Source of the DNA: an uncultured bacterium
GTDB taxonomy: Bacteria > Bacillota_I > Bacilli_A > RFN20 > CAG-826
Assembly: GCA_949299335.1 (NCBI GenBank)
Contig: CASGAD010000014.1
Location: forward strand, 1 to 64,000
DNA: 64,000 nucleotides
Direction: 5' to 3'
The notes beneath the pieces are model-generated. The model was given only the letters and a program-made list of their open reading frames with translations, searched no databases and was not told the DNA's origin. The translations under genes and the position numbers were made by a program. Positions 2,351 through 60,673 of the stretch are shown here, piece by piece (the stretch's first letter is position 1; every line of letters begins with the position of its first letter).

Positions 2351-2883
2351 AGTTTTAAGACATTTAAATAATCTAAAGGAGGCATAAAGCCTCTTTTTAT
2401 TTCATAGGCATTTTTTAAAAAGTAACTTAGAGGAATAGAAGAAGTTGAGTTATTTTTAATAAACTCAAATAAGCTTTTGCTAGGCAAAATAAAATACTTA
2501 TTTAATAAAGCAAATTCTATGATAAAAAAAGATATTCCACCATGCAAAATTACTCTTTTTGCGTGCAAAACTTGATTATCTTTTATGTTTTTTAATGGAA
2601 AACTAGTTTTAGAATTTGTGCTTTTAGCTTCAAAATCTAAGTATTTTCCTTTATATAAGCCGTTATAATCAGTGGTGCTTTTACTTTCAAAATAAGCCTC
2701 AATTATTTTATTATTTTGACATTTAACTATATTAATTGGAGTAGCTTTTTTGTATATTAAAGCAATACTATTTTCTAAATAGTAATCATTAGAATCATTG
2801 ATTTCCTTTTCAAGAGTCATCCCTCTATTTTTATAATTTATAATCTCATTATTGTCATTAACATCAAAGTTAAATTTAATCAT
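2332..2883 (-). CDS. recU: Holliday junction resolvase RecU
   Basis: RecU cuts Holliday junctions during recombination in Firmicutes and also modulates RecA. It is 183 residues, a little shorter than the Bacillus subtilis protein of about 200. Recognisable segments: NRGMTLEKEINDSN near the start, ALIYKKATPINIV, and the nuclease core TTDYNGLYKGKYLDFEAK with the metal-binding D...D...ExK pattern. The start overlaps the end of the upstream exonuclease gene by 4 nt (ATGA type), so they form a two-gene operon. In B. subtilis recU is next to the cell-wall gene ponA; that gene is absent here and an exonuclease takes its place. Its end overlaps nth. Confidence 0.92.
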   Translation of the reverse strand: MIKFNFDVNDNNEIINYKNRGMTLEKEINDSNDYYLENSIALIYKKATPINIVKCQNNKIIEAYFESKSTTDYNGLYKGKYLDFEAKSTNSKTSFPLKNIKDNQVLHAKRVILHGGISFFIIEFALLNKYFILPSKSLFEFIKNNSTSSIPLSYFLKNAYEIKRGFMPPLDYLNVLKLHLDNF

Positions 2884-3605
2884 TGAATTTCCTCATCAAT
2901 ATATTTTAAGAGGTCATCAGTGGTTACAGTTCCTTCATCAACTAACTTAGTCATAATTTTTAATATTGGAGTTGGCAAATGAGGGTTATGAAGTAAAACT
3001 TTTAAATATTCTTCCTTTAAAATTCGTTTTTCAGTAATGAAAGCGTTATAAAGTAAAGATAAATTAATTGCATCGCTTTGGGGATCATGAGCATCTCCTA
3101 AAGGTGTGATTTCAAACTTTTTTAAGGCATCTAATAAAGAAATCATCTCATTTCTATTGCTTCGACAAAATTTAGATACAACATTAGAAAAATCGATGTT
3201 CTTTTTATAAATCATATGAATAAAATCATCATCATCTACATGATTAATTAAAGAAGTTTGATGTAATAAACGCATATCAAAATTACCATAAGTCATAAAG
3301 ACAGTTTGCTTTAAATTATTTCCACAATAAGAGCTAAATTTTTGTATGGCATCAGTAAAATTTTCACCATATTGAAAAAGATAAAGGTCAGTGATCCCAG
3401 TTAATTGTTCAACAACTGGACCAACAACACCTTCAGCTCGAATAAAAATTTTAAATGGTTTATGCGACTTTTTTATTCTTTTTTTATTGTCTAATTCAAC
3501 TTTTATGGCCCCAATTGCAATTATTTCTTGAGTCAATTGAGTACCTTCAAAGTCCATGAAGATAATTTGATTTGCATCGTTTAGTAACTTGTTTAAAAAC
3601 TTCAT
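2880..3605 (-). CDS. DEDD-family 3'-5' exonuclease
   Basis: Exonuclease of the DEDDh (RNase T / DNA polymerase III epsilon / KapD-like) superfamily. Visible: the D-x-E pair in IIFMDFEGTQ, the second acidic site in FMTYGNFDMRLL, and the last His...Asp pair in GDAHDPQSDAINLSLLY. The C-terminal 60 residues are not recognised. Substrate (DNA or RNA) cannot be told; it could be a KapD/ERI-1-like nuclease. I place the start at the ATG at 3605 (241 residues) because a good promoter (TTGAAA-17-TATAAT, minus strand) ends only 7 nt before it, so the in-frame GTG at 3644 lies upstream of transcription. No Shine-Dalgarno precedes the ATG, so translation is probably leaderless. It is coupled to recU. Confidence 0.8.
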   Translation of the reverse strand: MKFLNKLLNDANQIIFMDFEGTQLTQEIIAIGAIKVELDNKKRIKKSHKPFKIFIRAEGVVGPVVEQLTGITDLYLFQYGENFTDAIQKFSSYCGNNLKQTVFMTYGNFDMRLLHQTSLINHVDDDDFIHMIYKKNIDFSNVVSKFCRSNRNEMISLLDALKKFEITPLGDAHDPQSDAINLSLLYNAFITEKRILKEEYLKVLLHNPHLPTPILKIMTKLVDEGTVTTDDLLKYIDEEIQ

Positions 3606-3612
3606 AAAAAGA

Positions 3613-3641
3613 ATTATAAAAATTTTTGACCTCTCTTTCAA
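3613..3641 (-). promoter_or_regulatory. Promoter of the exonuclease-recU operon
   Basis: On the minus strand, TTGAAA (3641-3636), a 17-nt spacer, then TATAAT (3618-3613). The -10 ends 7 nt before the ATG at 3605, so the expected transcription start coincides with the start codon. Confidence 0.7.
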
Positions 3642-4164: not shown

Positions 4165-4510
4165 ACTTCAGTCCATGCAATCGCTGGTTCTTTTATGAAT
4201 TAGAGGAAAGTCCATGCTCGCACTTCCTGTGATGGAAGTAGTGATTATGCTAGTCTAAAAAATAAGGCTAGGTACTTTGGAGAAAGTAACGGCAGATGAA
4301 GATCTAAAAGGAAACTCATGATTGGAATCTATAAAGTGCCACAGTGACGAATTTGCTTGAAAAGGCAAAATGAAACGTTGGTAAACCCCTTAAGCGAGAA
4401 ACTCAAATTTTGGTAGAGGAGATTGGGAAGGAGAAACGAATCCTAACTAGTAAACGAAAGTTTAGATAAATGATTGCATAAAACATAACATGGCTTACGG
4501 ACTGAGTACT
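4165..4510 (+). ncRNA. rnpB: RNase P RNA (type B)
   Basis: Catalytic RNA that matures tRNA 5' ends. The hallmark GAGGAAAGTCCATGCTCGCAC appears as two parts around 4202-4222, followed by AAAGTGCCACAGTGACGAA, GGTAAACCCC, GCGAGAAACTCAAATTTTGG and the closing CATGGCTTACGGACT. The first bases (CTTCAGTCC, 4166-4174) pair with GGACTGAGT (4499-4507) to close helix P1, which sets the ends. The length of about 345 nt is usual for the Firmicutes class. It begins right after the gpsB stop codon and is likely processed from or transcribed with that gene. No U-run terminator is visible before pgsA. Confidence 0.95.
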
Positions 4511-16145: not shown

Positions 16146-17972
16146 TTATACCATCTTAGTTTGAATTTCATAGATCCTTTTATAAAGACCTTCTTGTTTA
16201 ATCAAACTTTCATGTTTACCTATTTGGGAAATTTTCCCATCCTCTAAAACGATAATTAAATCTGCATCTTTAGCAGTAGCAACTCTATGAGTAATTAAAA
16301 AAGTAGTACACTTTTCTATTCTTTCTTTCATTGCTTTTCTTATATTAAAATCAGTTTCCGTATCAACAGCTGATAAAGAATCATCAAAAACAAGAATTGG
16401 TGATTTTAGAATTAATGTTCTAGCAATAGCGACTCTTTGTTTTTGCCCACCACTTAATGTAGTTCCTTTTTCTCCGACAGCGGTGTCGTATCCTTTAGGG
16501 AAATTAATAATAGAATTATGAATTTGGCAAATAGAAGTTGCTTTAATTAAGTCATCATTATTTGCTTTTTGATTAGCGATAAGAACGTTATCTTTAATGG
16601 TTTTAGAAAAAAGGAATGGATCTTGTAAAACAATAGAAATATTTTGCCTTAAATAATGCTTTTGAATGGTTTTTATATCGACGCCATCGATATAAATTGT
16701 CCCACTAGTTGAGTCATATAATCTAGTTAATAGATAAGCTAAAGTAGATTTTCCACTTCCAGTTTTACCCATAATAGCGACTGTTTGACCTTCTTTAACA
16801 GAAAAACTAATATTTTTTAAAGTAGAGTCATTACTATCTGGATAATTAAAGGAAACATTTTCAAAAGTTACATTTCCATTTATTTCAGGTGTTTCACCTG
16901 TATCTACATCTTCAAGTGGCTCATTTAAAATTAAGCTAATTCTATCTAAACTGGCGTTAGCTCTTGCTAGATTACTTAAAACAGTTGCGACATCTCTAAT
17001 TGGCCAAACCATGAAGTTAACAAAAGTAAAACTCATATAAAGTGTACCTACACCAAATTCTTTATTGTAACAAAGTACAAAACCGACAATAGTTGTGATA
17101 GCGATTTGACCAAAAACAAAAATATCACTGCTTGAGAAGAAGAAAGCTCTTAATTTTCCCCAGTTCATATACTTAGTTCTATAGTCATCAACATATTTTT
17201 CAAAGTCATTAATTTCAAATTCTTCATTATTATATGCTTTAACTAATCTAACACTAGCTAAGTTTTCTTCAATTTTTGATGTCATTTCACCTTCGCTATC
17301 ATCAGTTTTTCTATATCTTTTTCTAACTTCTTTAATAACAAAGAAGGAATATATAAACATAAAAGGCATTAATAACATAGTTACTAAAGCTATTTTATAG
17401 TTTGTAATCCATAAGAAAACAAAAGAAATTCCAACAATAAAAACAGTATAAACAATCATCGAGGTATCAAAACTAGCGAATCTTTTTAAAACATCTTCAT
17501 CACGAGTACAAGTTTGAATGATATCGCCGTTTTTCATGCTTTTAATTTTAGAATATGGTAAACGCTCTATATGGTTAAATAAAAGCATTTGTAGGTTTTT
17601 ACTCATAGTGTTCATAAATTTTGTTCTAAAGAAAAATCTAATTGCCGAAACAATCGCAGATAAAAGAGCAAAACCTATTATTAAAATGGCAAAAAACCAT
17701 ATATTAGTACTTAAGAACTTAATTCCACCAAATGAGTTAATAAAAAATGCCGATAAAAAATTTACATCACTCCCTAGTTGTTCTAAATTGTCAATTGGAG
17801 TACCAATACCACCTAAATAATCCTGCGTTTGCAAAATATCGATAAGTATTTTTGAAATATAGGTTGTGGTAATTGAAAACAAAACTGAGAAGAACATTAA
17901 GACAAAATAGGAGTAATATAGAAATCGACATCCTTCTGTAATAATATGAAGCATCTTAAAGTATCGTTTCAT
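16146..17972 (-). CDS. ABC exporter half-transporter with degenerate catalytic site
   Basis: First gene of the exporter operon, 608 residues: six membrane helices (about 18-320) and an ATPase domain with GKTGSGKSTLA, signature LSGGQKQRVAIARTL and Walker B ILVFDDSLSAVD. Walker B has Asp where the catalytic Glu should be, the usual mark of the non-catalytic partner in heterodimeric exporters. Its ATG is 9 nt after a TATAAT on the minus strand and lacks a Shine-Dalgarno, so the message may be leaderless. It is divergent from the flippase-glycosyltransferase operon and shares a -35 box with it. Confidence 0.9.
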   Translation of the reverse strand: MKRYFKMLHIITEGCRFLYYSYFVLMFFSVLFSITTTYISKILIDILQTQDYLGGIGTPIDNLEQLGSDVNFLSAFFINSFGGIKFLSTNIWFFAILIIGFALLSAIVSAIRFFFRTKFMNTMSKNLQMLLFNHIERLPYSKIKSMKNGDIIQTCTRDEDVLKRFASFDTSMIVYTVFIVGISFVFLWITNYKIALVTMLLMPFMFIYSFFVIKEVRKRYRKTDDSEGEMTSKIEENLASVRLVKAYNNEEFEINDFEKYVDDYRTKYMNWGKLRAFFFSSSDIFVFGQIAITTIVGFVLCYNKEFGVGTLYMSFTFVNFMVWPIRDVATVLSNLARANASLDRISLILNEPLEDVDTGETPEINGNVTFENVSFNYPDSNDSTLKNISFSVKEGQTVAIMGKTGSGKSTLAYLLTRLYDSTSGTIYIDGVDIKTIQKHYLRQNISIVLQDPFLFSKTIKDNVLIANQKANNDDLIKATSICQIHNSIINFPKGYDTAVGEKGTTLSGGQKQRVAIARTLILKSPILVFDDSLSAVDTETDFNIRKAMKERIEKCTTFLITHRVATAKDADLIIVLEDGKISQIGKHESLIKQEGLYKRIYEIQTKMV

Positions 17973-17981
17973 ATAATAAAA

Positions 17982-18009
17982 ATTATACTTTTAATATAGT
18001 TTTTTGCAA
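17982..18009 (-). promoter_or_regulatory. Promoter of the ABC exporter operon
   Basis: Minus strand TTGCAA (18009-18004), 16-nt spacer, TATAAT (17987-17982). The ATG at 17972 begins 9 nt after the -10. The -35 hexamer is a palindrome and also serves the divergent promoter. Confidence 0.65.
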
Positions 18010-18032
18010 TCTTATTTGATAAAATTTATAAA
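18004..18032 (+). promoter_or_regulatory. Promoter of the flippase-glycosyltransferase operon
   Basis: TTGCAA (18004-18009), 17-nt spacer, TATAAA (18027-18032). The ATG at 18045 is 12 nt after the -10 with no Shine-Dalgarno. It uses the same TTGCAA as the divergent promoter. Confidence 0.6.
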
Positions 18033-18044
18033 GCAAGAATTATT

Positions 18045-19637
18045 ATGATAAATGAAGAAAAAAACAAAGAATTGCAAGAAAATAAGTTGTTAAATGAAAA
18101 AAAAGAAAATGAGTTTAGCAATGATTTTATTGTGCAAGGCGAAGATGGAATAGAAATCAACGAAGAAGATGAAAAAGAGATAAATCTAGGTGAATCTATT
18201 AATGAAGATGTCGTTGAAGAATTACATAGTAAAGAAGAAAAAGAAAAGACTGCTATTGGTGAAAAGAAAAATGATAATTATAAATATTTTATTTATCTTT
18301 TTCTTATTCTTTTAATTACTGGGCTTGTTTTATGGTACAACTTAGCTAGTGCCACAGGAATGACTGATGAAACCGGTGAACCAATCTATGTTTATCAAAC
18401 AATTGGTGATGTTTTTAAATCAATGAATTGGTGGTATTTTGCTTTATTTATTGGTTTTGTTTTATTAAATTACCTAATATCATCATTAATTATCTTTTTA
18501 TTTGCTAGGTTGTATACTCGTCACTATAAATATCATCAAGCGTATGCTAATAATGCGATTGGAGCTTTTTATAGTGCAATTACTCCTGGATCAAGTGGAG
18601 GTCAATTTGCTCAAGTTTATACTTTTAAAAAGCAAGGGATTCCAGTTAGTAATAGCGCCTCAATTTTTGTAATGAGTTTTATTATTAGCCAATCTGTCTT
18701 GATTGTTGTTGGACTAATTTCTTTAATTACAAGTTTTAATTTGATTATTACTTTAAATGCAATACCTATTACAATTGGGGACATTAGTTTTTCTATTCCT
18801 ATTTGGGCATTTATTATTTTAGGATTTGGATTAAATTTACTTGTAATATTCTTATTATTATTTATGTCTTATTCTAAGCGTTTTTTAGGCTTTGTTTCTA
18901 ATAATATTATTAATTTATTAGCGAAAATTAGACTTGTTAAAAATCCAGATGAAAAGCGCAAAAACATTCGTATACAAGTTGAAAATTATCGTATAGAACT
19001 TAGACGTTTACAAAGTAATATACCTTTTACAACGCTTGTTGTATTTTTAATGTTCTTAAATTTAGTAATAAGCCAATTATCACCATTTTTTAGTGGTTTA
19101 GCCTTAAATGCTTTTGACTTATCAAACATTAATGTTGCTCAAAAAATATATGATTGCGTTGTGTTTTGTAATTTCCACCAAATGGTCACTGGTTTAATTC
19201 CTTTGCCAGGAAGTGCAGGTATTAGTGAAATTGTTTTTGCTTCTCTATTTGGCTCATCAAGTAATTACTATAGTCAAGATTTCTATTTACATGGAGGATT
19301 AAATATTATCTTACTTGTTTGGAGATTTGGCACTTTCTATATTCCATTTTTTATTAATGGCATATTTGCTGCTACATATAAAACTAGAGGTCTTCCTGTT
19401 AAAGATAGAATTATTCCAGTCGGAAACAGGAAAACAATGCTTACTATTCAATTAGAAACTTATACTGAAAGAAAAGCTAGTAGTGATACTTTATATGAAA
19501 CTAAAGCATTAGAAAGAAAACAAGTGTTAGAAAAAATAATGCGTCATGACAAAACAAAAAAGAACACCACAAGTATAGAAACTAAAAAAGAAGTAAAAGA
19601 ATATGAAGATAAAATTGTTATAGGAGATGATGAATAA
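18045..19637 (+). CDS. Lysylphosphatidylglycerol synthase TM-region / flippase-like membrane protein
   Basis: Polytopic membrane protein of the UPF0104 / MprF N-terminal (LPG_synthase_TM) family, 530 residues. An acidic, Lys/Glu-rich cytosolic segment (about 1-80) comes first, then about eight membrane helices. Family motifs: ITPGSSGGQFAQVYTFKKQG and TGLIPLPGSAGISE. The last 70 residues are hydrophilic. It lacks the MprF synthase domain, so it is probably a lipid flippase-like carrier, not an aminoacyl-lipid synthase. The next gene is a glycosyltransferase overlapping by 1 nt (TAATG), which suggests that the pair handles a glycolipid; that link is an inference. No Shine-Dalgarno precedes the ATG. 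Confidence 0.85.
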   Translation: MINEEKNKELQENKLLNEKKENEFSNDFIVQGEDGIEINEEDEKEINLGESINEDVVEELHSKEEKEKTAIGEKKNDNYKYFIYLFLILLITGLVLWYNLASATGMTDETGEPIYVYQTIGDVFKSMNWWYFALFIGFVLLNYLISSLIIFLFARLYTRHYKYHQAYANNAIGAFYSAITPGSSGGQFAQVYTFKKQGIPVSNSASIFVMSFIISQSVLIVVGLISLITSFNLIITLNAIPITIGDISFSIPIWAFIILGFGLNLLVIFLLLFMSYSKRFLGFVSNNIINLLAKIRLVKNPDEKRKNIRIQVENYRIELRRLQSNIPFTTLVVFLMFLNLVISQLSPFFSGLALNAFDLSNINVAQKIYDCVVFCNFHQMVTGLIPLPGSAGISEIVFASLFGSSSNYYSQDFYLHGGLNIILLVWRFGTFYIPFFINGIFAATYKTRGLPVKDRIIPVGNRKTMLTIQLETYTERKASSDTLYETKALERKQVLEKIMRHDKTKKNTTSIETKKEVKEYEDKIVIGDDE

Positions 19638-31996: not shown

Positions 31997-32018
31997 TGCC
32001 TGCACTTTCTTGCATTAA
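31993..32018 (+). terminator. Weak hairpin after sufB
   Basis: TTAATGC and GCATTAA form a 7-bp stem with a 12-nt loop starting at the sufB stop codon. There is no T run, and its right arm contains the mnmG -35 (TTGCAT). It may be a weak terminator or chance. Confidence 0.3.
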
Positions 32019-32038
32019 TTAGTTAATAAAGATAAAAT
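32010..32038 (+). promoter_or_regulatory. Promoter of mnmG-rsmG-parA-parB
   Basis: TTGCAT (32010-32015), 17-nt spacer, TAAAAT (32033-32038). The mnmG ATG at 32049 starts 10 nt later with no Shine-Dalgarno, so the leader would be only a few bases. Confidence 0.6.
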
Positions 32039-32048
32039 ACTATTCGCT

Positions 32049-33923
32049 ATGCAAAAAAATTACGATGTTATTGTTGTTGGTGGAGGCCACGCTGGAAGCG
32101 AGGCTGCTTTAGCGTGCGCTCATCGTGGTGATAAAACTTTATTAATTTCTTTAAATATTAAAATGATAGCTAATATGCCTTGCAATCCTTCAATTGGGGG
32201 AAGTGCTAAAGGAATAGTTGTTAGAGAAGTTGATGCTCTTGGTGGTTTCATGGGCAAAGTTTGTGATTCTGAATATTTGCAAATGAAGATGCTAAATACT
32301 AAAAAAGGACCTGGTGTTCAATGTTTAAGAGCTCAAGCGGATAAAAAGCGTTATCCGCATCATATGCAAGAAGTACTTTTAAATACACCAAATTTAGATA
32401 TTTTAGAAGATGAAGTTAAAGGAATTTTATACGAAGGCAATAAAATTTTAGGTGTTTATACTCCTGATAAAAAAATCTATTCAAAAGCTGTAATTTTAAC
32501 TACTGGAACTTATATGAATAGCGATATTTTAAGAGGGCATACTAAAATTTCTGAAGGTCCAGATGGAGAAAAACCTTCTATCGGATTAAGTGATTGCTTA
32601 AGAGAAATGGGCATTAAACTTCAAAGATTAAAGACTGGCACACCTCAAAGAATAGCAAAAGAATCAATCGATTATTCTCAAACTGAGGTTCAATATGGAA
32701 ATGTAGAAGACCAAGCTTTTAGTTATGAAACCCATTCGTTTATAAAAATTAAAGATCAGATTCCTTGTTACTTAATATATACAACTCCTGAAACTCATGA
32801 GATTATTAGAGCGCATTTAGGAGAAAGTGCTATGTATGGAGGAATGGTCGAAGGAGTTGGCCCTAGATATTGTCCTTCAATCGAAGATAAAATAGTCAGA
32901 TTTAGTGATAAACCTAGACATCAATTATTTTTAGAACCTGAAAGTTACGATACAAATAGTATATATTTGCAGGGTTTTTCTACAAGTATGCCAGAATATG
33001 TACAAGACTTAATGGTTCATTCTTTACCTGGATTACAAAATGCTAAAATTTTAAAATACGCTTATGCGATTGAATATGATGCTTTAGAAACCGAAGAGTT
33101 TGATTCTACTTTAATGGTTAAAAAATATCCTGGACTATTCATTGGTGGACAAATTTGTGGTACTAGTGGATATGAAGAAGCAGCTGGACTAGGTTTAATG
33201 GCAGGAATTAACGCTTCATTATATATAAAAAACGAAGAACCATTTATTTTAAAACGTGATGAAGCTTATATAGGTGTCATGATTGATGATTTAATTACTA
33301 AAGGAGCTAAAGAACCATATAGATTATTATCAAGTAGAGCTGAATATCGATTACTTCTTAGAAGCGATAACGCTGACCTTAGGCTTACTGAATATGGCTA
33401 TAAATATGGATTAATTGGTAAAGAAAGATATACTAATTTCTTAGAAAAGAAAGCAAAATTTGAGCGAATTTCTAAAATTTTAGAAGAAACTTATTTTGGA
33501 GCAACCAGTAAAGTTAATGATTACTTAATTAAATTAGGCTATGAAAAACTTACCTATGGAGTTAATGGGAAAGACTTACTTAAAAGAAATGGCGTGGCTT
33601 ATAGTGAATTAAAGAATTACTTGAATTTAGATGAAAATTTGTCACTAGATACTTTAAGTGAATTTGAACTCGAAGTAAGTATTAAATATGAAGGCTATAT
33701 TGAAAGTGAACGTAAGGAAGCTCAAAAGTTTAGAAAATTAGAGGATATTAAACTTAGTAAAGAAACTGACTATTCTTTAATGGACGGATTACGTTTAGAG
33801 GCTAGACAAAAATTAAACGCAGTTAAACCTTTAACGATTGGACAGGCAAGTAGAATAAGTGGTGTAAATCCTAGTGATATTTCGATACTAGTTATGAATT
33901 TAAAAAAGGGTAAAAAAATATGA
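32049..33923 (+). CDS. mnmG: tRNA uridine-5-carboxymethylaminomethyl modification protein MnmG (GidA)
   Basis: FAD enzyme that, with MnmE, modifies wobble U34 of tRNAs. It has 624 residues, the standard length. The dinucleotide site VVGGGHAGSEAA is at the N-terminus; CNPSIGGSAKG, TTGTYMNS, RLKTGTPQR, GGQICGTSGYEEAAGLG and the C-terminal SRISGVNPSDIS are family hallmarks. No ribosome-binding site is visible; the promoter -10 ends 10 nt before the ATG. It leads mnmG-rsmG-parA-parB, the order found near the replication origin in many Firmicutes. Confidence 0.97.
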   Translation: MQKNYDVIVVGGGHAGSEAALACAHRGDKTLLISLNIKMIANMPCNPSIGGSAKGIVVREVDALGGFMGKVCDSEYLQMKMLNTKKGPGVQCLRAQADKKRYPHHMQEVLLNTPNLDILEDEVKGILYEGNKILGVYTPDKKIYSKAVILTTGTYMNSDILRGHTKISEGPDGEKPSIGLSDCLREMGIKLQRLKTGTPQRIAKESIDYSQTEVQYGNVEDQAFSYETHSFIKIKDQIPCYLIYTTPETHEIIRAHLGESAMYGGMVEGVGPRYCPSIEDKIVRFSDKPRHQLFLEPESYDTNSIYLQGFSTSMPEYVQDLMVHSLPGLQNAKILKYAYAIEYDALETEEFDSTLMVKKYPGLFIGGQICGTSGYEEAAGLGLMAGINASLYIKNEEPFILKRDEAYIGVMIDDLITKGAKEPYRLLSSRAEYRLLLRSDNADLRLTEYGYKYGLIGKERYTNFLEKKAKFERISKILEETYFGATSKVNDYLIKLGYEKLTYGVNGKDLLKRNGVAYSELKNYLNLDENLSLDTLSEFELEVSIKYEGYIESERKEAQKFRKLEDIKLSKETDYSLMDGLRLEARQKLNAVKPLTIGQASRISGVNPSDISILVMNLKKGKKI

Positions 33924-36193: not shown

Positions 36194-36312
36194 GCGTTAA
36201 AGTGATGTTGTAATCGAGCAAAATTTAATTATTTGAAAAAATAGTGCATAAACTTTTTAAGCTTTTATTAAAAATTCGTGTTATTAGATTAAATTAGTAG
36301 TATTATTTAATT

Positions 36313-36420
36313 ACTTCAGGGAAGGTGTAAGTCCTTATTGGTGGTAAACCCCACGAGATTATGATTAATCCGAGTAGGTGAAATTCCTACGGCAACAGTT
36401 AAAGTCTGGATGGAAGAAGT
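36313..36420 (+). promoter_or_regulatory. FMN riboswitch (RFN element)
   Basis: Conserved RFN blocks in order: AGGGAAGGTGTAAGTCCT, TTGGTGGTAA, CCCACGAG, ATCCGAG, then CAACAGTTAAAGTCTGGATGG and AAGAAG. ACTTC (36313-36317) pairs with GAAGT (36416-36420) to close P1. It lies before a riboflavin transporter gene. TATTAT at 36301-36306 is a plausible -10 that would start transcription at the first riboswitch base. Confidence 0.95.
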
Positions 36421-36433
36421 TATTTTTCTTTTT

Positions 36434-36464: not shown

Positions 36465-37085
36465 ATGAAATCAAATGTCGTTATTAATTATATAACGAGA
36501 ACAGCAATTTTTGGCGGGTTAGCAGCAATTTTATATTGTGCACCAGGGCTACAATTTAATTTGCCGTTTGCACCATCATTTATGAGTGTACATCTTGATG
36601 ATATACCAATACTCATTTCGAGTTTGGCGTATGGTCCTTTTTTAGGTGTGTTGGAGATAATTCTAAAAACTTTAATTAAATTGCCTATGACATCAACTGT
36701 TTGTATTGGTGAAATTGGTGATATGATTTATTCCTTGGCGTTAATCTTACCAGCGTCTCTAATCTACAAGTATAATAGAACAATCAAAGGAGCCTTTATA
36801 GGGGTTTCGGTTGGTTTAATTTCTACTTTGTTTTTTTCAACAATAGTTAATTTGTATACTATTTTTCCTCTTTATAAAATGATTTTAAATATGAAAGAAG
36901 GTGATATTGCCAATACATTTGGAGGTATATTTAATTGGCTTAATTGGCATTTAACTAGTGATTACGATCCACGAATTGCGATATTATTATTACCTTTTAA
37001 TTTAGTTAAAAATGGAATTGTCATCTTTGTAACTTTTATTGCATATAAACCTTTAAGATATTTTTTAGAAAAAGCACATTTATAA
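36465..37085 (+). CDS. ribU: Riboflavin ECF transporter S component (RibU-like)
   Basis: Membrane substrate-binding subunit of an energy-coupling-factor vitamin transporter, 206 residues with about six hydrophobic segments. The start region with TRTAIFGGLAAILYCAPG and FAPSFMSVHLDDIPILIS is typical of RibU (conserved Asp/Pro segment), and the FMN riboswitch upstream fixes riboflavin as the likely substrate. The energising A, A' and T subunits are not in the window. Translation starts at the ATG that ends the terminator T run. No riboflavin synthesis gene is near, so uptake may be the main source. Confidence 0.9.
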   Translation: MKSNVVINYITRTAIFGGLAAILYCAPGLQFNLPFAPSFMSVHLDDIPILISSLAYGPFLGVLEIILKTLIKLPMTSTVCIGEIGDMIYSLALILPASLIYKYNRTIKGAFIGVSVGLISTLFFSTIVNLYTIFPLYKMILNMKEGDIANTFGGIFNWLNWHLTSDYDPRIAILLLPFNLVKNGIVIFVTFIAYKPLRYFLEKAHL

Positions 37086-41957: not shown

Positions 41958-43234
41958 ATTGGAAACTTACTTTTTAATTCTCTTAAATTTGAAGAACGTT
42001 TAATAGTTTTTAAATTAGCGTATATTTCATTTAAACCTTTTTCATATTTAGAAGTAGAAGCGCTATTTGGTATATAAAATTCTTTATTTTTAATAACTTC
42101 AGGAAGATATTGCATATATTTCCAAATGTCTGGATTATCATATGGATATTTGTCTATTTCTTGAACATTGACTGGGGTTAATCTTAAATAATCTAGGACA
42201 TCAAGAGGTGAGTTGGCAGCTTCTTCATAGGCTCTATCCATAGCCTTACAAGCAGCTTTTGATTTTGGGGAAAGTGCTAAATCCACAATCGCTACAGATA
42301 ATGGAATTAAAGCCTCAGGAAGACCAACTTCATAGGCACTTTCAATAGCAATTTTAGTTCTCATAGCAGCCTGAGGATTAGCAATGCCTATATCTTCATA
42401 AGCAGTAACTAATAACCTTCTAGTCAAACTTTCCATATCACCACTAGCTAATATTCTAGCAGCATAATAAAGGGCAGCATTTACATCACTTCCACGAATA
42501 GATTTTTGCATCGCACTAACAGCATCATAATGACCATTTTCATCATTATCTATCGATGAATTGGCAACTTTTACGACACTTGAAACTTTAGGCAAATCAA
42601 TTTTATCTTCACCATAAGTAATTGATAAAATCTCTAAATAGTTTAAGGCAAAACGAATATCTCCATTTGATTTTTTAGCGATATAATTTAATGATTCATC
42701 ATCAATATCCATCTTGGAAGCTAAGCCCTTTTTACTTGTAATTGCTCTTTTTAAGGCTAAAACAACTTCATCATTAGATAAACGTTTAACTTCTAATAGA
42801 TGTAATCTAGATCTTATAGCCTTATTTATTGAAATATATGGGTTAGCAGTGGTTGCGCCAATTAAATAGATTGTTCCATCTTCAACTGAAGGCAATAAAA
42901 TATCTTGTTTATCTTTATTTAAACGATGAATTTCGTCAATAATTATGATTGAACAATTGTAGTTTTTACTATTTTCAATAGCATCTACTAAATCTTTTTT
43001 ATTTGAAGTAACTGCATTTATTAAAGTGTAGTGAGCACCTAAAGAATTAGCATAGCATTCGGCAATTGTTGTTTTTCCAGTTCCAGGTTCACCAAATAGT
43101 ATAAAAGAAAGAGGAATACCTTTTTTAACACTACTTGTTAAAAAGCCATTTTCTCCAACTAAATCTTTTTGTCCAATTACTTCATCTAAAGAAGTAGGTC
43201 TCATTCTAAAAGCTAATGGTTTAATCATATACAT
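41948..43234 (-). CDS. rarA: Replication-associated recombination protein A (MgsA/RarA AAA ATPase)
   Basis: AAA+ ATPase acting at stalled forks (428 residues). FRMRPTSLDEVIGQ is the N-terminal family start; Walker A is GEPGTGKTT, Walker B IIIIDEIHRLNK, sensor 1 GATTANP, and arginine finger AIRSRLHLLEV. The C-terminal tetramerisation part contains RGSDVNAALYYAARIL and EDIGIANPQA. The ATG at 43234 or the one at 43228 could start; the second matches the usual M-x-K-P-L-A-F beginning. No ribosome-binding site is visible; TATAAG (43245-43240) is 5 or 11 nt before. Confidence 0.93.
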   Translation of the reverse strand: MYMIKPLAFRMRPTSLDEVIGQKDLVGENGFLTSSVKKGIPLSFILFGEPGTGKTTIAECYANSLGAHYTLINAVTSNKKDLVDAIENSKNYNCSIIIIDEIHRLNKDKQDILLPSVEDGTIYLIGATTANPYISINKAIRSRLHLLEVKRLSNDEVVLALKRAITSKKGLASKMDIDDESLNYIAKKSNGDIRFALNYLEILSITYGEDKIDLPKVSSVVKVANSSIDNDENGHYDAVSAMQKSIRGSDVNAALYYAARILASGDMESLTRRLLVTAYEDIGIANPQAAMRTKIAIESAYEVGLPEALIPLSVAIVDLALSPKSKAACKAMDRAYEEAANSPLDVLDYLRLTPVNVQEIDKYPYDNPDIWKYMQYLPEVIKNKEFYIPNSASTSKYEKGLNEIYANLKTIKRSSNLRELKSKFPIKK

Positions 43235-43241
43235 ATTATCT

Positions 43242-43265
43242 TATATCTTTTTATTAAAAGATATA
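43242..43265. repeat. Inverted repeat between rarA and dtd
   Basis: TATATCTTTT and AAAAGATATA form a perfect 10-bp inverted repeat around TATT, 8 bp upstream of rarA. It overlaps the likely rarA -10 and could be an operator. Confidence 0.5.
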
Positions 43266-43280
43266 ATAAAAAGTTATGTA

Positions 43281-43309
43281 TACACAATAGGCTCACTTTT
43301 TTGTATAAT
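43281..43309 (+). promoter_or_regulatory. Promoter of dtd-mnmA
   Basis: TACACA (43281-43286), 17-nt spacer, TATAAT (43304-43309). The dtd ATG at 43316 is 6 nt later, right where transcription should start. Confidence 0.7.
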
Positions 43310-43315
43310 TTTTGC

Positions 43316-43768
43316 ATGAAAATTGTTTTACAAGAAGTTTTGAAAGCTAGTGTTACTATAGATGAAAAAGAATACTCCTCAATTAATAAAGGGTTTCTTT
43401 TACTTGTGAGTTTTAAAGAAGGTGACAAGCTAGAGACAATAAAAAAGATGGCGTTAAAAGTAAGTAAATTACGTGTTTTTTTGGATGAAAACGGAAAAAC
43501 TAATCTTTCTTTAAACGATGTTGGAGGAGAAATTTTATCTGTTTCACAATTTACTCTTTATGCTGACTTAAAAAAGGCAAATAGACCTGGTTATACATAT
43601 TGTATGAAGAGTGAATTTGCTACTAAATATTATGATTTATTTAATGAAGAATTACGTAATTTGGGTTTTGTAGTAAAAACTGGGATTTTTGGCGCTGATA
43701 TGAAGGTAAATCTTATTAATGACGGACCTTATACTTTAGTCATTGATAGTGATGAATTAGGATATTAA
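43316..43768 (+). CDS. dtd: D-aminoacyl-tRNA deacylase
   Basis: Removes D-amino acids (and glycine misloaded on tRNA-Ala) from tRNAs. It has 150 residues. MKIVLQEVLKASVTID matches the family start, SVSQFTLYADLKKANRPG the Ser-Gln motif, and LINDGPYTLVIDS the C-terminal NxGP-T motif (here N-D-G-P-Y-T). The ATG at 43316 is fixed by family alignment and lies 6 nt after the -10, with no Shine-Dalgarno, so the message looks leaderless. mnmA follows after 2 nt. Confidence 0.93.
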   Translation: MKIVLQEVLKASVTIDEKEYSSINKGFLLLVSFKEGDKLETIKKMALKVSKLRVFLDENGKTNLSLNDVGGEILSVSQFTLYADLKKANRPGYTYCMKSEFATKYYDLFNEELRNLGFVVKTGIFGADMKVNLINDGPYTLVIDSDELGY

Positions 43769-52417: not shown

Positions 52418-52436
52418 TTTAGTGTAAAATGATTAC

Positions 52437-53396
52437 ATGATTTATATTTTATTTGGTGAACAAGAATTAATGATAAAAAACAGAATAAAAAGAATAATTA
52501 AGGATGATTTTTCTTTAAATTCTGAAGTTATAAAAATGAGCATGAATGATAATAAAATCGGCAAATTAATCGATGAATACGATCAATTTTCGATTACTGG
52601 CGAACCTAAAATTATTATTGCAAATGATGCTTATTTTATTGAATCAACCACTAGAATAAAAAATAAAAATTTTGAGAAAAAAGAATTAGAAGAACTTTAT
52701 GAATGCATTTCAAGTGGTGTTAACTCAAATTCAATCATTTTTGTTATAAATTCAGATAAAATAGATCAAAAATCTAACATTGTTAAATATGCTAAAACTA
52801 ATGGCAAAATATATGAGTTTAAAAATGTAAGCAAAAACGACTGGCCCATCTACATTAAGGAATATTTTAATAAAAGAAACGTAAAAATAAGTGATGATGC
52901 TGTTGAAGAACTTGTTCGTAGAGTTCATGGTGATTTATATACATTTTCAAATGAAGCAACTAAATTAATACTGTATAAGGGCTATCAAATAACAAAGGAA
53001 GATGTTTTAAATCTAGTTAGTAATGTCTTAGAAGATGATGTTTTTAATATATTAAATAGTTTATTAGCGAATAATAAGGAAGCGGCTTTAAAAACGTATA
53101 GAGATTTAAGAGTTCAAGGAGTAGAACCAGTTAGTTTAATTTCTTTAATTAGTAGTTCTATTATTTATATTCTAAATGTCAAAAATTTATCTAGTTTAGG
53201 TTTAAAAGCGGATGAAATTGCAACTAAAACAGGAAGTAGTACTGGTAGAGTCTTTATGGCTTTTAAAAATATTAAGTTAAGCAGCGAAAATAAATTATTT
53301 TCTGCACTAGATAATCTTTACGACATCGATTTTAAAATAAAGCATAATTTAGTCGATAGATTCGTTGCTTTTGAGATGTTCATAGCAAATTTCTAA
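52437..53396 (+). CDS. holA: DNA polymerase III delta subunit
   Basis: Clamp-loader subunit that opens the beta clamp (319 residues). The start MIYILFGEQELMIKNRIKRI, VKNVSKNDWPIYIKEYF-like middle and the LVRRVHGDLYTFSNEATKL segment match HolA (YqeN). It lies after comEC as in B. subtilis. The ATG is 6 nt after TAAAAT (52425-52430) and has no Shine-Dalgarno; there is no convincing -35, so a promoter here is possible but less sure than at other loci. Confidence 0.9.
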   Translation: MIYILFGEQELMIKNRIKRIIKDDFSLNSEVIKMSMNDNKIGKLIDEYDQFSITGEPKIIIANDAYFIESTTRIKNKNFEKKELEELYECISSGVNSNSIIFVINSDKIDQKSNIVKYAKTNGKIYEFKNVSKNDWPIYIKEYFNKRNVKISDDAVEELVRRVHGDLYTFSNEATKLILYKGYQITKEDVLNLVSNVLEDDVFNILNSLLANNKEAALKTYRDLRVQGVEPVSLISLISSSIIYILNVKNLSSLGLKADEIATKTGSSTGRVFMAFKNIKLSSENKLFSALDNLYDIDFKIKHNLVDRFVAFEMFIANF

Positions 53397-57148: not shown

Positions 57149-57157
57149 TGATATACT
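57149..57157 (+). promoter_or_regulatory. Extended -10 promoter of lepA
   Basis: TGaTATACT at 57149-57157; the ATG at 57167 is 9 nt later without a Shine-Dalgarno. The -35 region is weak, as is allowed with an extended -10. Confidence 0.55.
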
Positions 57158-57166
57158 TATTCAGTT

Positions 57167-58978
57167 ATGAAATATGATCAATCAAAAATAAGGAATTTTA
57201 GTGTTATTGCCCACATAGATCATGGTAAATCTACTCTTTGTGATCGAATTTTAGAATTAACTAAAGCGGTAGAACAACGTGAAATGAAATCACAAATATT
57301 GGATTCGTTAGATTTAGAAAGAGAAAGAGGCATTACAATTAAATTAAATGCGGTAACTGTAAATTATCATGCTGATGATGGTGAAGATTATATTTTTAAT
57401 TTAATTGACACTCCAGGGCATGTTGATTTTAGCTATGAAGTTAGTAGGTCTTTAGCAGCTTGCGAAGGAGCTGTTTTAGTAGTTGATGCTACTCAAGGAG
57501 TTGAAGCCCAAACTTTAGCTAATGTTTATTTAGCTGTTGATAATGACTTATATATTGTTCCAGTTATTAATAAGATCGATTTACCAAGTGCTTCAATTAA
57601 TCTTTGTAAGGAAGAAATAAGAGATAAAATTGGTTTAGATGGCGATAATGCAGTTTTAGTAAGTGCTAAAACTGGTCAAAACGTTAAAGAAGTATTAGAA
57701 AAAATTGTTAAAGAAGTTCCAGCACCTAGTGGAAACAATGATGCTCCTTTAAAGGCACTTATTTTCGATAGTTTTTATGATTCTTACCGTGGAGTCGTTG
57801 TTTTAATTAGGATAAAAGAAGGACAAGTCCATGTTGGTGATACAATTCATTTGATGAAAACGAATTGTGATTTTTTAGTCACAGAACTTGGAATTAGAAC
57901 ACCAAAAGAATTGCCTTGTGACACATTATATTGTGGAGAAGTCGGCTATTTATGTGCTCAAATTAAAGATATTAGAGATGTAAGTGTAGGTGATACTATC
58001 ACTTTAAAAGATAATCCCGCCTTATTGCCTTTACCTGGTTATCGTAAGATAAATCCAATGGTTTATTGTGGAATTTATCCTACTGATAGCAAAAAATACG
58101 AAGACTTAAAAGAATCATTAGAAAAATTAGCGTTAAATGATGCGAGTTTACGTTTTGAACCTGAAACATCTCAAGCTTTAGGTTTTGGATTTAGATGTGG
58201 CTTTTTAGGCTTGCTTCATATGGATGTTGTTCAAGAGAGACTCGAACGTGAATTTGGATTAGATTTAATTTTAACTGCACCAAGTGTTATCTATAAAATT
58301 TATTTAACTGATGGAAGTGTAATAGATCTTGATAATCCTAGTAAAATGCCTGAACCAACCACAATTAAAAAAATTGAAGAACCTTATGTTAAAGCAAAAA
58401 TAATGACACCAAAAGATTATGTAGGGGATATTATGCAACTATGTATGGATAGAAGAGGCATTTATATTGACCTAGAATATTTTGATGAAACTAGAATGAT
58501 TTTAACTTATGATATGCCTTTAAACGAAATAATCTATAATTTCTTTGATAAATTAAAATCATATACAAAAGGTTATGCTAGTTTGGATTATGAAATTGAT
58601 GAATATAAAGAAAGTAATCTAACAAAAATGGATATTCTTTTAAATGGACATCCAATTGATGCTTTATCTAGCATTGTATATAAGCCATTTGCTTTTAAGC
58701 GTGGATTGAAGATAGTTTCTAAATTAAAAGAAGTGATCCCACGTCAACAATTTGAAATTCCTGTTCAAGCTGCGATTAATGGCAAAGTAATCGCTAGATC
58801 TGATATTAAAGCAGTGAGGAAAGATGTCTTAGCGAAATGTTATGGTGGAGATATAACACGAAAAAAGAAACTTTTAGAGAAACAAAAAGAAGGCAAAAAG
58901 AGAATGAAGTCAATCGGTTCGGTTGATGTTCCACAAGATGCTTTTATGTCAATTTTGAGCATAGATAGCGAAGATTAG
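57167..58978 (+). CDS. lepA: Elongation factor 4 (LepA)
   Basis: Ribosome-bound GTPase that can back-translocate and aids 30S biogenesis (603 residues, standard). G1 AHIDHGKST, the RGITIK switch, G3 DTPGHVD and G4 NKIDLP are present; the C-terminal family domain ends with [17 protein letters not shown]. The ATG lies 9 nt after an extended -10 with no ribosome-binding site. In B. subtilis rpsT-gpr-spoIIP-lepA are adjacent; the spore genes are absent here. Confidence 0.98.
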
Positions 58979-59080
58979 TATATATTTAGTCATAAAGTAG
59001 TAGTTTTTTAGTAAGTATTTGCTTTTAAAATATTCTAAATAAGTTATAATTATATTAGTTAATTTAGCGGAGGAATAATT

Positions 59081-60673
59081 ATGGGTGGTCAAGAATTATC
59101 CATGAAGTTTAGTAATGATATCTACGCTACTAGAGCGGATGTCAAACGTGAAATGAAAACTGGATTAATTGATGGGATTTGGAATGAGATATTAAAATAT
59201 AGATCAAATTTTAATAATGTTTTAAAACTTAGACATGTTGATTCAACAGCATATGTAGTATGTTTAACTCCTAAAATCGCTGAAAGAGTTAATACAATTG
59301 AAAGAAAACTTTTAAAACTTTCTAAAAATTATACTGACTTATGCAAAATTAGAACTGAAAAAGAGTTTGATATAATTTCTAAAACAAAAATATTAAAAAC
59401 AATTGGTAAGCTTTATAACATTGAAACTAATGAATCATTACTTTATTCAATTTCTAATGGTTCATTAACTAATGTCTCTCCTGAATTTTTAATCTTAACT
59501 AGATATTTAAAATGTCTCGATGAAATCGGCAATTTTGCTTCAAAAGAGATTGATGATAATACAATAGGGACATTCTATAGTTATTTATTAGGTACAGAAG
59601 ATTTAACTGAATACTATAGAACTAAAGATTTTGAAAATAAATTTTCAAAATATATTACTGGAAGAGTTTATTTAGGCATTCCTTATGGCATAATCGATAG
59701 ATCAATGGAACAACTACTTAACTTTATTCAATATAGTGATATAAGTGGATTTATTAAAGCAATTTGTACTTTCTATTACCTTTATTATGTCAAACCATTT
59801 GAGACTCATAATGAAGAAATTGCTATTTTAATGCTTAAAAAAATACTTGCATTTAACGATTATGATAAAGTTGCTTCTTTAATTAATTTTGAAGAACTTT
59901 TGATGAATAAAGATGAACTTGAATCAGTAGTTTTTGAATGTCAAAGAACCTATGATTTAACTTATTTTTTATCATATTGTTTGAATGCAATTGATAAATT
60001 AGTAGCAGATGCATTAGACGATGTTGCTAATGCTGAGAAAATTGGTGTAAGACACGATTTTTATCAAAATGATAGTTATCAAAACAATATTCCTTCATTA
60101 AATAGAACTAATATGCTTGATGATGGAGTTACTAAAGTTGAAGGAACTAAAGTAAATGAAAGTGTAACCACGATTCCTAAAGAAACTATTCAACCTCAAG
60201 AACCAGTAAGTTCTTCTTTCGAAACTAAACCAACTGAAGTAGTTCCTCCAGTTCAAGAAGCTAATAAAACAGTGGTTCAAAATGTAGAAAAAATTGATGA
60301 AAGCGAATTTAAAACTACTCCAAGTCAACAAACATTTGCTCATGAATCAGTTTCTAATGAACCAGGAGTAATGGTAAATTTTGCCCAAAATATCGCAATT
60401 TCTAATTTACCAACTGGGTTAAGTGAAGAAGAAGCATCTAAACTTGAAAATCATTTATTAGAACTTAATCCATACTTAACTCGAGGACAAGCTTATTTTT
60501 ACGCTAGACACTGCACAATTGGTATGTGCTATACTATTTCTCAGTATAAAAAAGAAGTTGGATGTGCTTATGAAACTGCTAGATGCAGCATGGATAATTT
60601 AGTAACCCTTGGTTATTACGTTAAAAAGCAACTTAAAAACAAATATATTTATACACCAGTTAAAAAAGGATAA
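59081..60673 (+). CDS. Degenerate Fic-domain protein with C-terminal winged helix
   Basis: Fic-fold protein (530 residues) that has probably lost AMP-transfer activity. The flap strand (GRVYLGIPYGIIDRSMEQLL, about 194-213) and helix before the active site (GFIKAICTFYYLYYV) fit the fold, but the catalytic HPFxxGNGRxxR is VKPFETHNEEIAIL at 237-250: the His is Lys238, the GNGR is HNEE. The N-terminal 190 residues are not recognised. A Gln/Thr/Pro-rich linker (about 325-446) leads to a winged helix (about 465-525, SQYKKEVGCAYETARCSMDN) as in Fic transcription-linked proteins. GGAGG precedes the ATG. Could be DNA-binding or a scaffold; function is unknown. Confidence 0.72.
   Translation: MGGQELSMKFSNDIYATRADVKREMKTGLIDGIWNEILKYRSNFNNVLKLRHVDSTAYVVCLTPKIAERVNTIERKLLKLSKNYTDLCKIRTEKEFDIISKTKILKTIGKLYNIETNESLLYSISNGSLTNVSPEFLILTRYLKCLDEIGNFASKEIDDNTIGTFYSYLLGTEDLTEYYRTKDFENKFSKYITGRVYLGIPYGIIDRSMEQLLNFIQYSDISGFIKAICTFYYLYYVKPFETHNEEIAILMLKKILAFNDYDKVASLINFEELLMNKDELESVVFECQRTYDLTYFLSYCLNAIDKLVADALDDVANAEKIGVRHDFYQNDSYQNNIPSLNRTNMLDDGVTKVEGTKVNESVTTIPKETIQPQEPVSSSFETKPTEVVPPVQEANKTVVQNVEKIDESEFKTTPSQQTFAHESVSNEPGVMVNFAQNIAISNLPTGLSEEEASKLENHLLELNPYLTRGQAYFYARHCTIGMCYTISQYKKEVGCAYETARCSMDNLVTLGYYVKKQLKNKYIYTPVKKG

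Follow-up and report, generated by a model that had tools for sequence, protein, structure and literature searches.

The dtd gene raises a question of start architecture, since a TATAAT hexamer ends only 6 nt before its ATG and no Shine-Dalgarno (SD) motif precedes it. The initial annotation had reported such arrangements at several unlinked operon heads. Is leaderless transcription a regular mode for the first genes of operons in this organism, operating side by side with SD-dependent starts? The elements at this locus are the following:

43281..43286, + strand: dtd promoter, -35-like TACACA (direct reading)
43304..43309, + strand: dtd -10 TATAAT, 6 nt before ATG (TACACA-17-TATAAT-6-ATG; close -10 in 18/25 genus orthologues)
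43316..43768, + strand: dtd, predicted leaderless gene for a D-aminoacyl-tRNA deacylase (TIGR00256, alignment beginning at residue 1, score above the cut-off)

The comparisons described below suggest that a fixed fraction of the genes at operon heads is very probably leaderless, beside a normal SD mode.

Genomes, gene calls and counts

The window is the whole stretch of 64,000 nucleotides analysed, comprising bases 1-64000 of contig 14 of an assembly of 1.42 Mb in 37 contigs with a GC content of 29%, from an uncultured gut bacterium related to the mycoplasmas. Its RarA protein has named relatives in metagenome assemblies labelled as uncultured 'Bacilli' and 'Mollicutes'. Orthologues were compared in a genus set of 26 genomes. 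Position statistics were obtained for three genomes, namely the window genome (G000), represented by sampled stretches totalling 758 kb rather than by the entire assembly, G018, and G076. One family (f1) spans GC contents from 29% (G000) to 61% (G076) at similar genome sizes of 1.3-1.4 Mb.

Genes were called with our own coding-potential model, which is blind to upstream signals. At least two gene starts in the window were misplaced by this caller and corrected by homology, a correction applied to only some genes. The primary count registered exact TATAAT hexamers ending 5-9 nt before the start, with intergenic ATGs that are not starts as controls; a wider count took as a close -10 any hexamer 5-10 nt before the start that differed from TATAAT at no more than one position.

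Promoters close to start codons in the window

When the sequence was re-read, all the -10 and -35 boxes claimed at operon heads in the initial annotation were found in place, and the absence of an SD at dtd, exonuclease, ABC exporter, mnmG, lepA, and holA was confirmed. The SD motifs ascribed to hup, recA, rny, gap, alaS, and greA were likewise recognised, as was one at the gene starting at 59081. The elements outside the dtd locus are:

2880..3605, - strand: 3'-5' exonuclease-like gene, predicted leaderless
3613..3618, - strand: exonuclease -10 TATAAT, 7 nt before ATG at 3605 (TTGAAA-17-TATAAT-7-ATG)
3636-3641, - strand: exonuclease -35 TTGAAA
17982..17987, - strand: ABC exporter -10 TATAAT, 9 nt before ATG at 17972 (TTGCAA-16-TATAAT-9-ATG)
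18004..18009, no strand assigned: TTGCAA, self-reverse-complementary, a possible shared -35 for the ABC exporter (-) and the flippase-like gene (+) (direct reading)
18027..18032, + strand: flippase-like gene, weak -10 TATAAA, 12 nt before ATG at 18045 (left out of the leaderless counts)
32010-32015, + strand: mnmG -35 TTGCAT
32033..32038, + strand: mnmG -10 TAAAAT, 10 nt before ATG at 32049 (TTGCAT-17-TAAAAT-10-ATG)
52425..52430, + strand: holA -10 TAAAAT, 6 nt before ATG at 52437
57149..57157, + strand: lepA extended -10 TGATATACT, 9 nt before ATG (direct reading)
57167..58978, + strand: lepA (elongation factor 4), predicted leaderless (TIGR01393)
59069..59073, + strand: SD GGAGG of the gene at 59081, adjoining lepA (leadered control)

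The sites differ in quality: those of exonuclease, ABC exporter, dtd, and lepA are strong, whereas those of mnmG, holA, the flippase-like gene, and rarA are weaker. The operon-head status of holA is doubtful, as it lies 19 nt after the preceding gene; in G018, a TAAAAT is found 9 nt before its start. Altogether, 6 of the 29 heads in the window have a close -10 that departs from the consensus at no more than one position; among these six, fmt (53774) was left off the leaderless list because of its doubtful start.

Starts called by coding potential, two of them wrong in the window before homology correction, could in principle be misassigned, with the true starts lying downstream behind a leader and an SD. 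This explanation appears extremely improbable. Indeed, orthologous proteins align from their first residues, the exonuclease start at 3605 being backed by all 26 genus genomes, whose sequences nearly all align from residue 1-2. Moreover, a downstream in-frame ATG with an SD was found in only 0/51, 1/28, and 2/34 candidates in the three genomes, not above controls.

Excess and spacing of -10 boxes at operon heads

In the window genome, 23 of 291 heads (7.9%) have an exact TATAAT ending 5-9 nt upstream of the start, compared with 20 of 2781 non-start intergenic ATGs (0.72%), an eleven-fold excess (p = 2e-13); the corresponding counts in G018 are 14/149 and 12/1087. Dinucleotide shuffles of the G000 upstream regions gave a mean of 4.2 (+/- 1.8) and a maximum of 10 exact matches against 22 observed, and TATAAT outscored all 19 of its anagrams at the close -10 positions. 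The proposed signal therefore withstood both comparisons suggested along with it, with random ATGs and with shuffled controls: -10 boxes occur 6-12 nt before the start above chance, as they should in leaderless genes. Two further properties of such genes were also found. A close -10 is present at 51/291 heads but at only 7/240 inner genes (G000), marking the first gene of a unit, and the in-frame codon at 6 or 7 nt after TATAAT is ATG in 37 cases, GTG in one and TTG in none (three genomes).

The spacer histogram of G000 peaks at 6-9 nt, with 11 of 22 boxes at exactly 6. It is nearly empty at 2-4 and 11-14 nt, and a separate broad class begins at 15 nt; thus, the distribution consists of two classes and not of a tail. 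This distance profile was preferred over counts of TATAATN{5,8}ATG across whole genomes, since any genome with promoters before ATG shows some of the latter; these counts were in excess in most genomes, with mild ratios in AT-rich ones. In G254, G239, and G273, of the same class, the motif is clearly rarer than its reversed control (e.g., 88/84 vs. 200/178), a pattern opposite to that of the window genome's family.

DNA of 29% GC is full of -10-like hexamers, and fitting ones might have been picked by chance. Such a background is real: shuffled upstream regions of G000 yield 24 one-mismatch matches against 47 observed, so that about half of the one-mismatch matches in this AT-rich genome are background and individual calls, such as those of mnmG, rarA, and the flippase-like gene, are uncertain. 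Nevertheless, chance is very improbable as a general explanation. It is refuted for the class as a whole by the excess over non-start ATGs, the sharp spacer peak, the recurrence of this peak at 61% GC and the footprints among orthologues (see below), and applies at most to single weak sites.

The -10 hexamer spans positions -12 to -7, and a 6-nt spacer therefore sets +1 on the A of the ATG. The mode of 6-7 nt, found in G000 and G076, is what a true 5'-terminal AUG requires, which supports the leaderless reading. From the observed positional signal, its conservation and the missing SD, we infer the transcript ends and the ribosome pathway as follows. Ordinary sigma-70-type promoters would place the -10 box 6-9 nt before the start codon, and RNA polymerase would start on the A of the ATG or 1-3 nt before it, producing an mRNA devoid of leader and SD. 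Translation would then start from the 5'-terminal AUG, to which a 70S ribosome would probably bind directly, while the remaining heads and most operon-internal genes would rely on SD pairing with an intact anti-SD.

A variant with +1 a few bases upstream of the ATG, giving very short leaders (2-8 nt) that are not strictly leaderless, is a possibility of lower probability, though not a negligible one. RNA polymerase scans a few positions, and the spacers of lepA (8-11 nt) and part of the other genes are above 7; however, the mode in G000 and G076 matches +1 on the A, and leaders of this size would also be too short for an SD, making this mostly a difference of definition.

SD exclusion and promoter features

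Motifs for SD pairing were found at only 2 of the 44 heads with a close -10, compared with 143 of 245 others (G000, p = 2e-12). This lack is partly mechanical because the hexamer occupies the place of the SD, and SD motifs were therefore recounted with the hexamer masked and controls masked equally. The exclusion persisted in G000 (0/51 vs. 29/240, p = 0.004) and G018 (0/28 vs. 17/121, p = 0.04), and was weaker in G076 (2/36 vs. 30/170, p = 0.08). The genes with a close -10 thus lack an SD, as leaderless genes do. About half of the heads carry an SD; among operon-internal genes the frequency is about 70-80% in two genomes and about half in G018. No 16S gene was found in the window's own MAG, and the anti-SD was read from relatives: five relatives within the order, including three genus members, retain an intact CCTCC in their 16S, and therefore SD starts work too.

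The candidate promoters also show other features beyond the hexamer. In each of the three genomes, their -35 matches are better than those of shuffled upstream sequence (p = 1e-5, 0.001, and 0.003), and a TGn extended -10 is present at 29%, 14%, and 21% of the candidates in the three genomes, compared with 3-4% locally.

The same spacing in a GC-rich relative

At 61% GC, G076 offers almost no background of -10-like hexamers. Here, 14 of 206 heads have an exact TATAAT at a distance of 5-9 nt, against 2 of 1613 non-start intergenic ATGs, and the same spacer peak is seen; AT-richness is therefore not the cause. One-mismatch boxes are present 5-10 nt before the start at 33 of 198 heads and 11-16 nt before it at a single head, from which a nearly background-free share of about 16% of heads is estimated. 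The same profile in G000 contains 51 matches at 5-10 nt and 22 at 11-16 nt, bringing the corrected share near 10%. The predicted leaderless share would accordingly range from about 10% of heads in the window genome up to about 16% in G076.

Conservation of start modes within the genus

Among orthologues, -10 boxes are kept while their flanks are not. A close -10 precedes lepA in 24 of 25 orthologues, at spacers of 8-11 nt and with TGn in all 24; the corresponding figures are 20/22 for rarA and 13/16 for the ABC exporter, and an SD was found in none of these three sets (0/25 for lepA). The gene downstream of lepA (59081) has the reverse pattern, with an SD in 24/24 orthologues, a close -10 in 0/24 and usually a TATAAT-like box further upstream. 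Both start modes thus appear to adjoin at the lepA locus, each conserved across the genus. This downstream gene (59081-60673, + strand) encodes a 530-aa protein with no Pfam or NCBIfam match, which directly follows lepA at 24 of 25 genus lepA loci and diverges fast (34-49% identity to most relatives).

Changes in gene context are accompanied by changes at the start. Three genomes lack the divergent rarA-dtd arrangement; in these, the close -10 of dtd is gone and the gene seems to follow another open frame. Similarly, mnmG overlaps or abuts the preceding gene in most genomes, and a close -10 was found in 5 of 25, only where the two are separated. These cases fit a rule by which genes are leaderless at the head of an operon and use an SD or coupling inside it.

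The start class tends to be kept within the genus (seven leaderless/leaderless pairs, odds ratio 9.8, p = 0.003). The same expectation failed across genera, with 2 leaderless/leaderless pairs among 46 ortholog pairs between G000 and G076 (p = 0.28).

The two start modes of the initial annotation are consequently backed, as a prediction from sequence, by position statistics, SD exclusion, enrichment of -35 and extended -10 elements, orthologue footprints and the 61%-GC relative.

A palindromic -10 between rarA and dtd in four relatives

The partner of dtd is divergently oriented, and its own -10 is weak in the window genome:

41948..43228, - strand: rarA (MgsA/RarA AAA+ ATPase), divergent partner of dtd
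43238..43243, - strand: rarA weak -10 candidate TAAGAT, 9 nt before ATG at 43228 (strong TATAAT here in most relatives)

In most genus members, the start codons of rarA and dtd are 46-53 bp apart, each gene having its own -10 at 5-12 nt, and the -35-like stretch of dtd in relatives (TTATACAC) reads as the rarA -10 on the opposite strand. The gap shrinks to 23-24 bp in G001, G004, G005, and G014, where it is filled by a single palindrome, ATTATATAAT, lying 6-7 nt from both ATGs. A -10 readable on both strands is thus present in these four genomes and absent from the window genome. With such a gap, an SD leader cannot fit on either side. The longer gap of the window genome contains a perfect inverted repeat (11-bp arms, 4-nt loop; TTATATCTTTT-TATT-AAAAGATATAA, 43241-43266), immediately upstream of rarA; a similar sequence and gap are found in the nearest relative, G013, and not in other genus members.

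These gaps also bear on whether the close -10 boxes could be secondary or unused, the main promoters lying further upstream and giving leaders with no SD. Between roughly a quarter and a third of heads lack both an SD and a close -10, and SD-less leadered genes therefore probably exist. For the genes with a close -10, however, this explanation is quite improbable, as such promoters would sit inside the opposite gene at rarA-dtd gaps of 23-24 bp (four genomes) or 46-53 bp (most others), and as the boxes are conserved while their flanks are not.

Returning to leaderless starts, divergent pairs in which both genes are leaderless lie nearer to each other (median 74 vs. 183 bp, p = 6e-5) and are commoner than expected (odds ratio 3.5, p = 0.006) in the three genomes. 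We lean towards the view that packing with no leader lets one palindromic -10 serve as the whole promoter and start region for rarA and dtd within 23-24 bp, and that genes also switch between SD-coupled and leaderless states on moving into or out of an operon. The palindromic-pair geometry was matched, with one mismatch allowed, about 69 times in 279 genomes, against about 17 in the reversed control. Of three matches whose flanks were inspected, a single one (L191) lies between correctly placed open frames, the forward frame being short (57 aa); no general class is therefore claimed.

In E. coli, bidirectional promoters have start sites on either side of or within a shared -10 (PMC12825309). 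These symmetric promoters combine a pseudo-symmetric shared -10 with divergent transcription; ATTATATAAT has the form of such a -10 in the four relatives and would be a candidate for transcription in both directions. We know of no case in which the two products of one symmetric -10 are leaderless mRNAs of neighbouring genes, and an open-access literature search returned nothing evidently joining a symmetric -10 to a leaderless pair. The rarA-dtd spacer would thus offer a compact natural test of two leaderless genes sharing one -10.

Comparison with known leaderless systems

Leaderless genes are an already known kind, predicted by GeneMarkS-2 in 21.6% of bacterial species (PMC9581028). Within Firmicutes, they have been predicted in Lactobacillales and Mycoplasma, reaching 18.3% in five Mycoplasma genomes (PMC3160421). 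By dRNA-seq, leaderless mRNAs amount to 8.6% in S. pyogenes and 9% in two further Streptococcus species, and are conserved between species (PMC6431027). In M. pneumoniae, 16% of transcripts have leaders of 8 nt or less and are translated as well as leadered ones, and only 8.1% of genes have an SD (PMC10568206). Measured figures also exist for M. gallisepticum (nine leaderless transcripts; PMC4245973), Mesoplasma florum (a few; PMC7745072), and Enterococcus (under 1%; PMC7724050). The initial annotation's statement that leaderless starts are rare in most Firmicutes is thus too strong in view of the values of about 9% in streptococci and 16-18% in some mycoplasmas.

The window genome resembles M. 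pneumoniae in that both are related low-GC, reduced-genome Bacilli with a leaderless class, a predicted one here; however, SD motifs are rare there, whereas here they are common and the two modes are cleanly separate. Streptococci have a similar share but belong to another order, Lactobacillales, and their share was measured whereas ours is predicted. Leaderless starts are predicted here throughout the genus and in a distant relative of high GC content, which would add an uncultured order of Bacilli to the groups where leaderless initiation is a regular mode. Since one family was sampled from 29% to 61% GC, the trait does not follow from AT-richness or from the loss of SD sites. Gene-finding programs relying solely on SD sites will misplace such starts.

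Structured RNAs in the window

Two structured RNAs were recognised in the window. An FMN riboswitch (RF00050, 93.6 bits; 36308-36425, + strand) precedes the membrane protein gene at 36465, and a short hairpin directly before its ATG, ending GGAGGTCATTTTTTT, may act as terminator and SD mask at once. A class B RNase P RNA (RF00011, 252.8 bits) lies at 4169-4501 (+ strand), between divIVA-like and pgsA-like genes.
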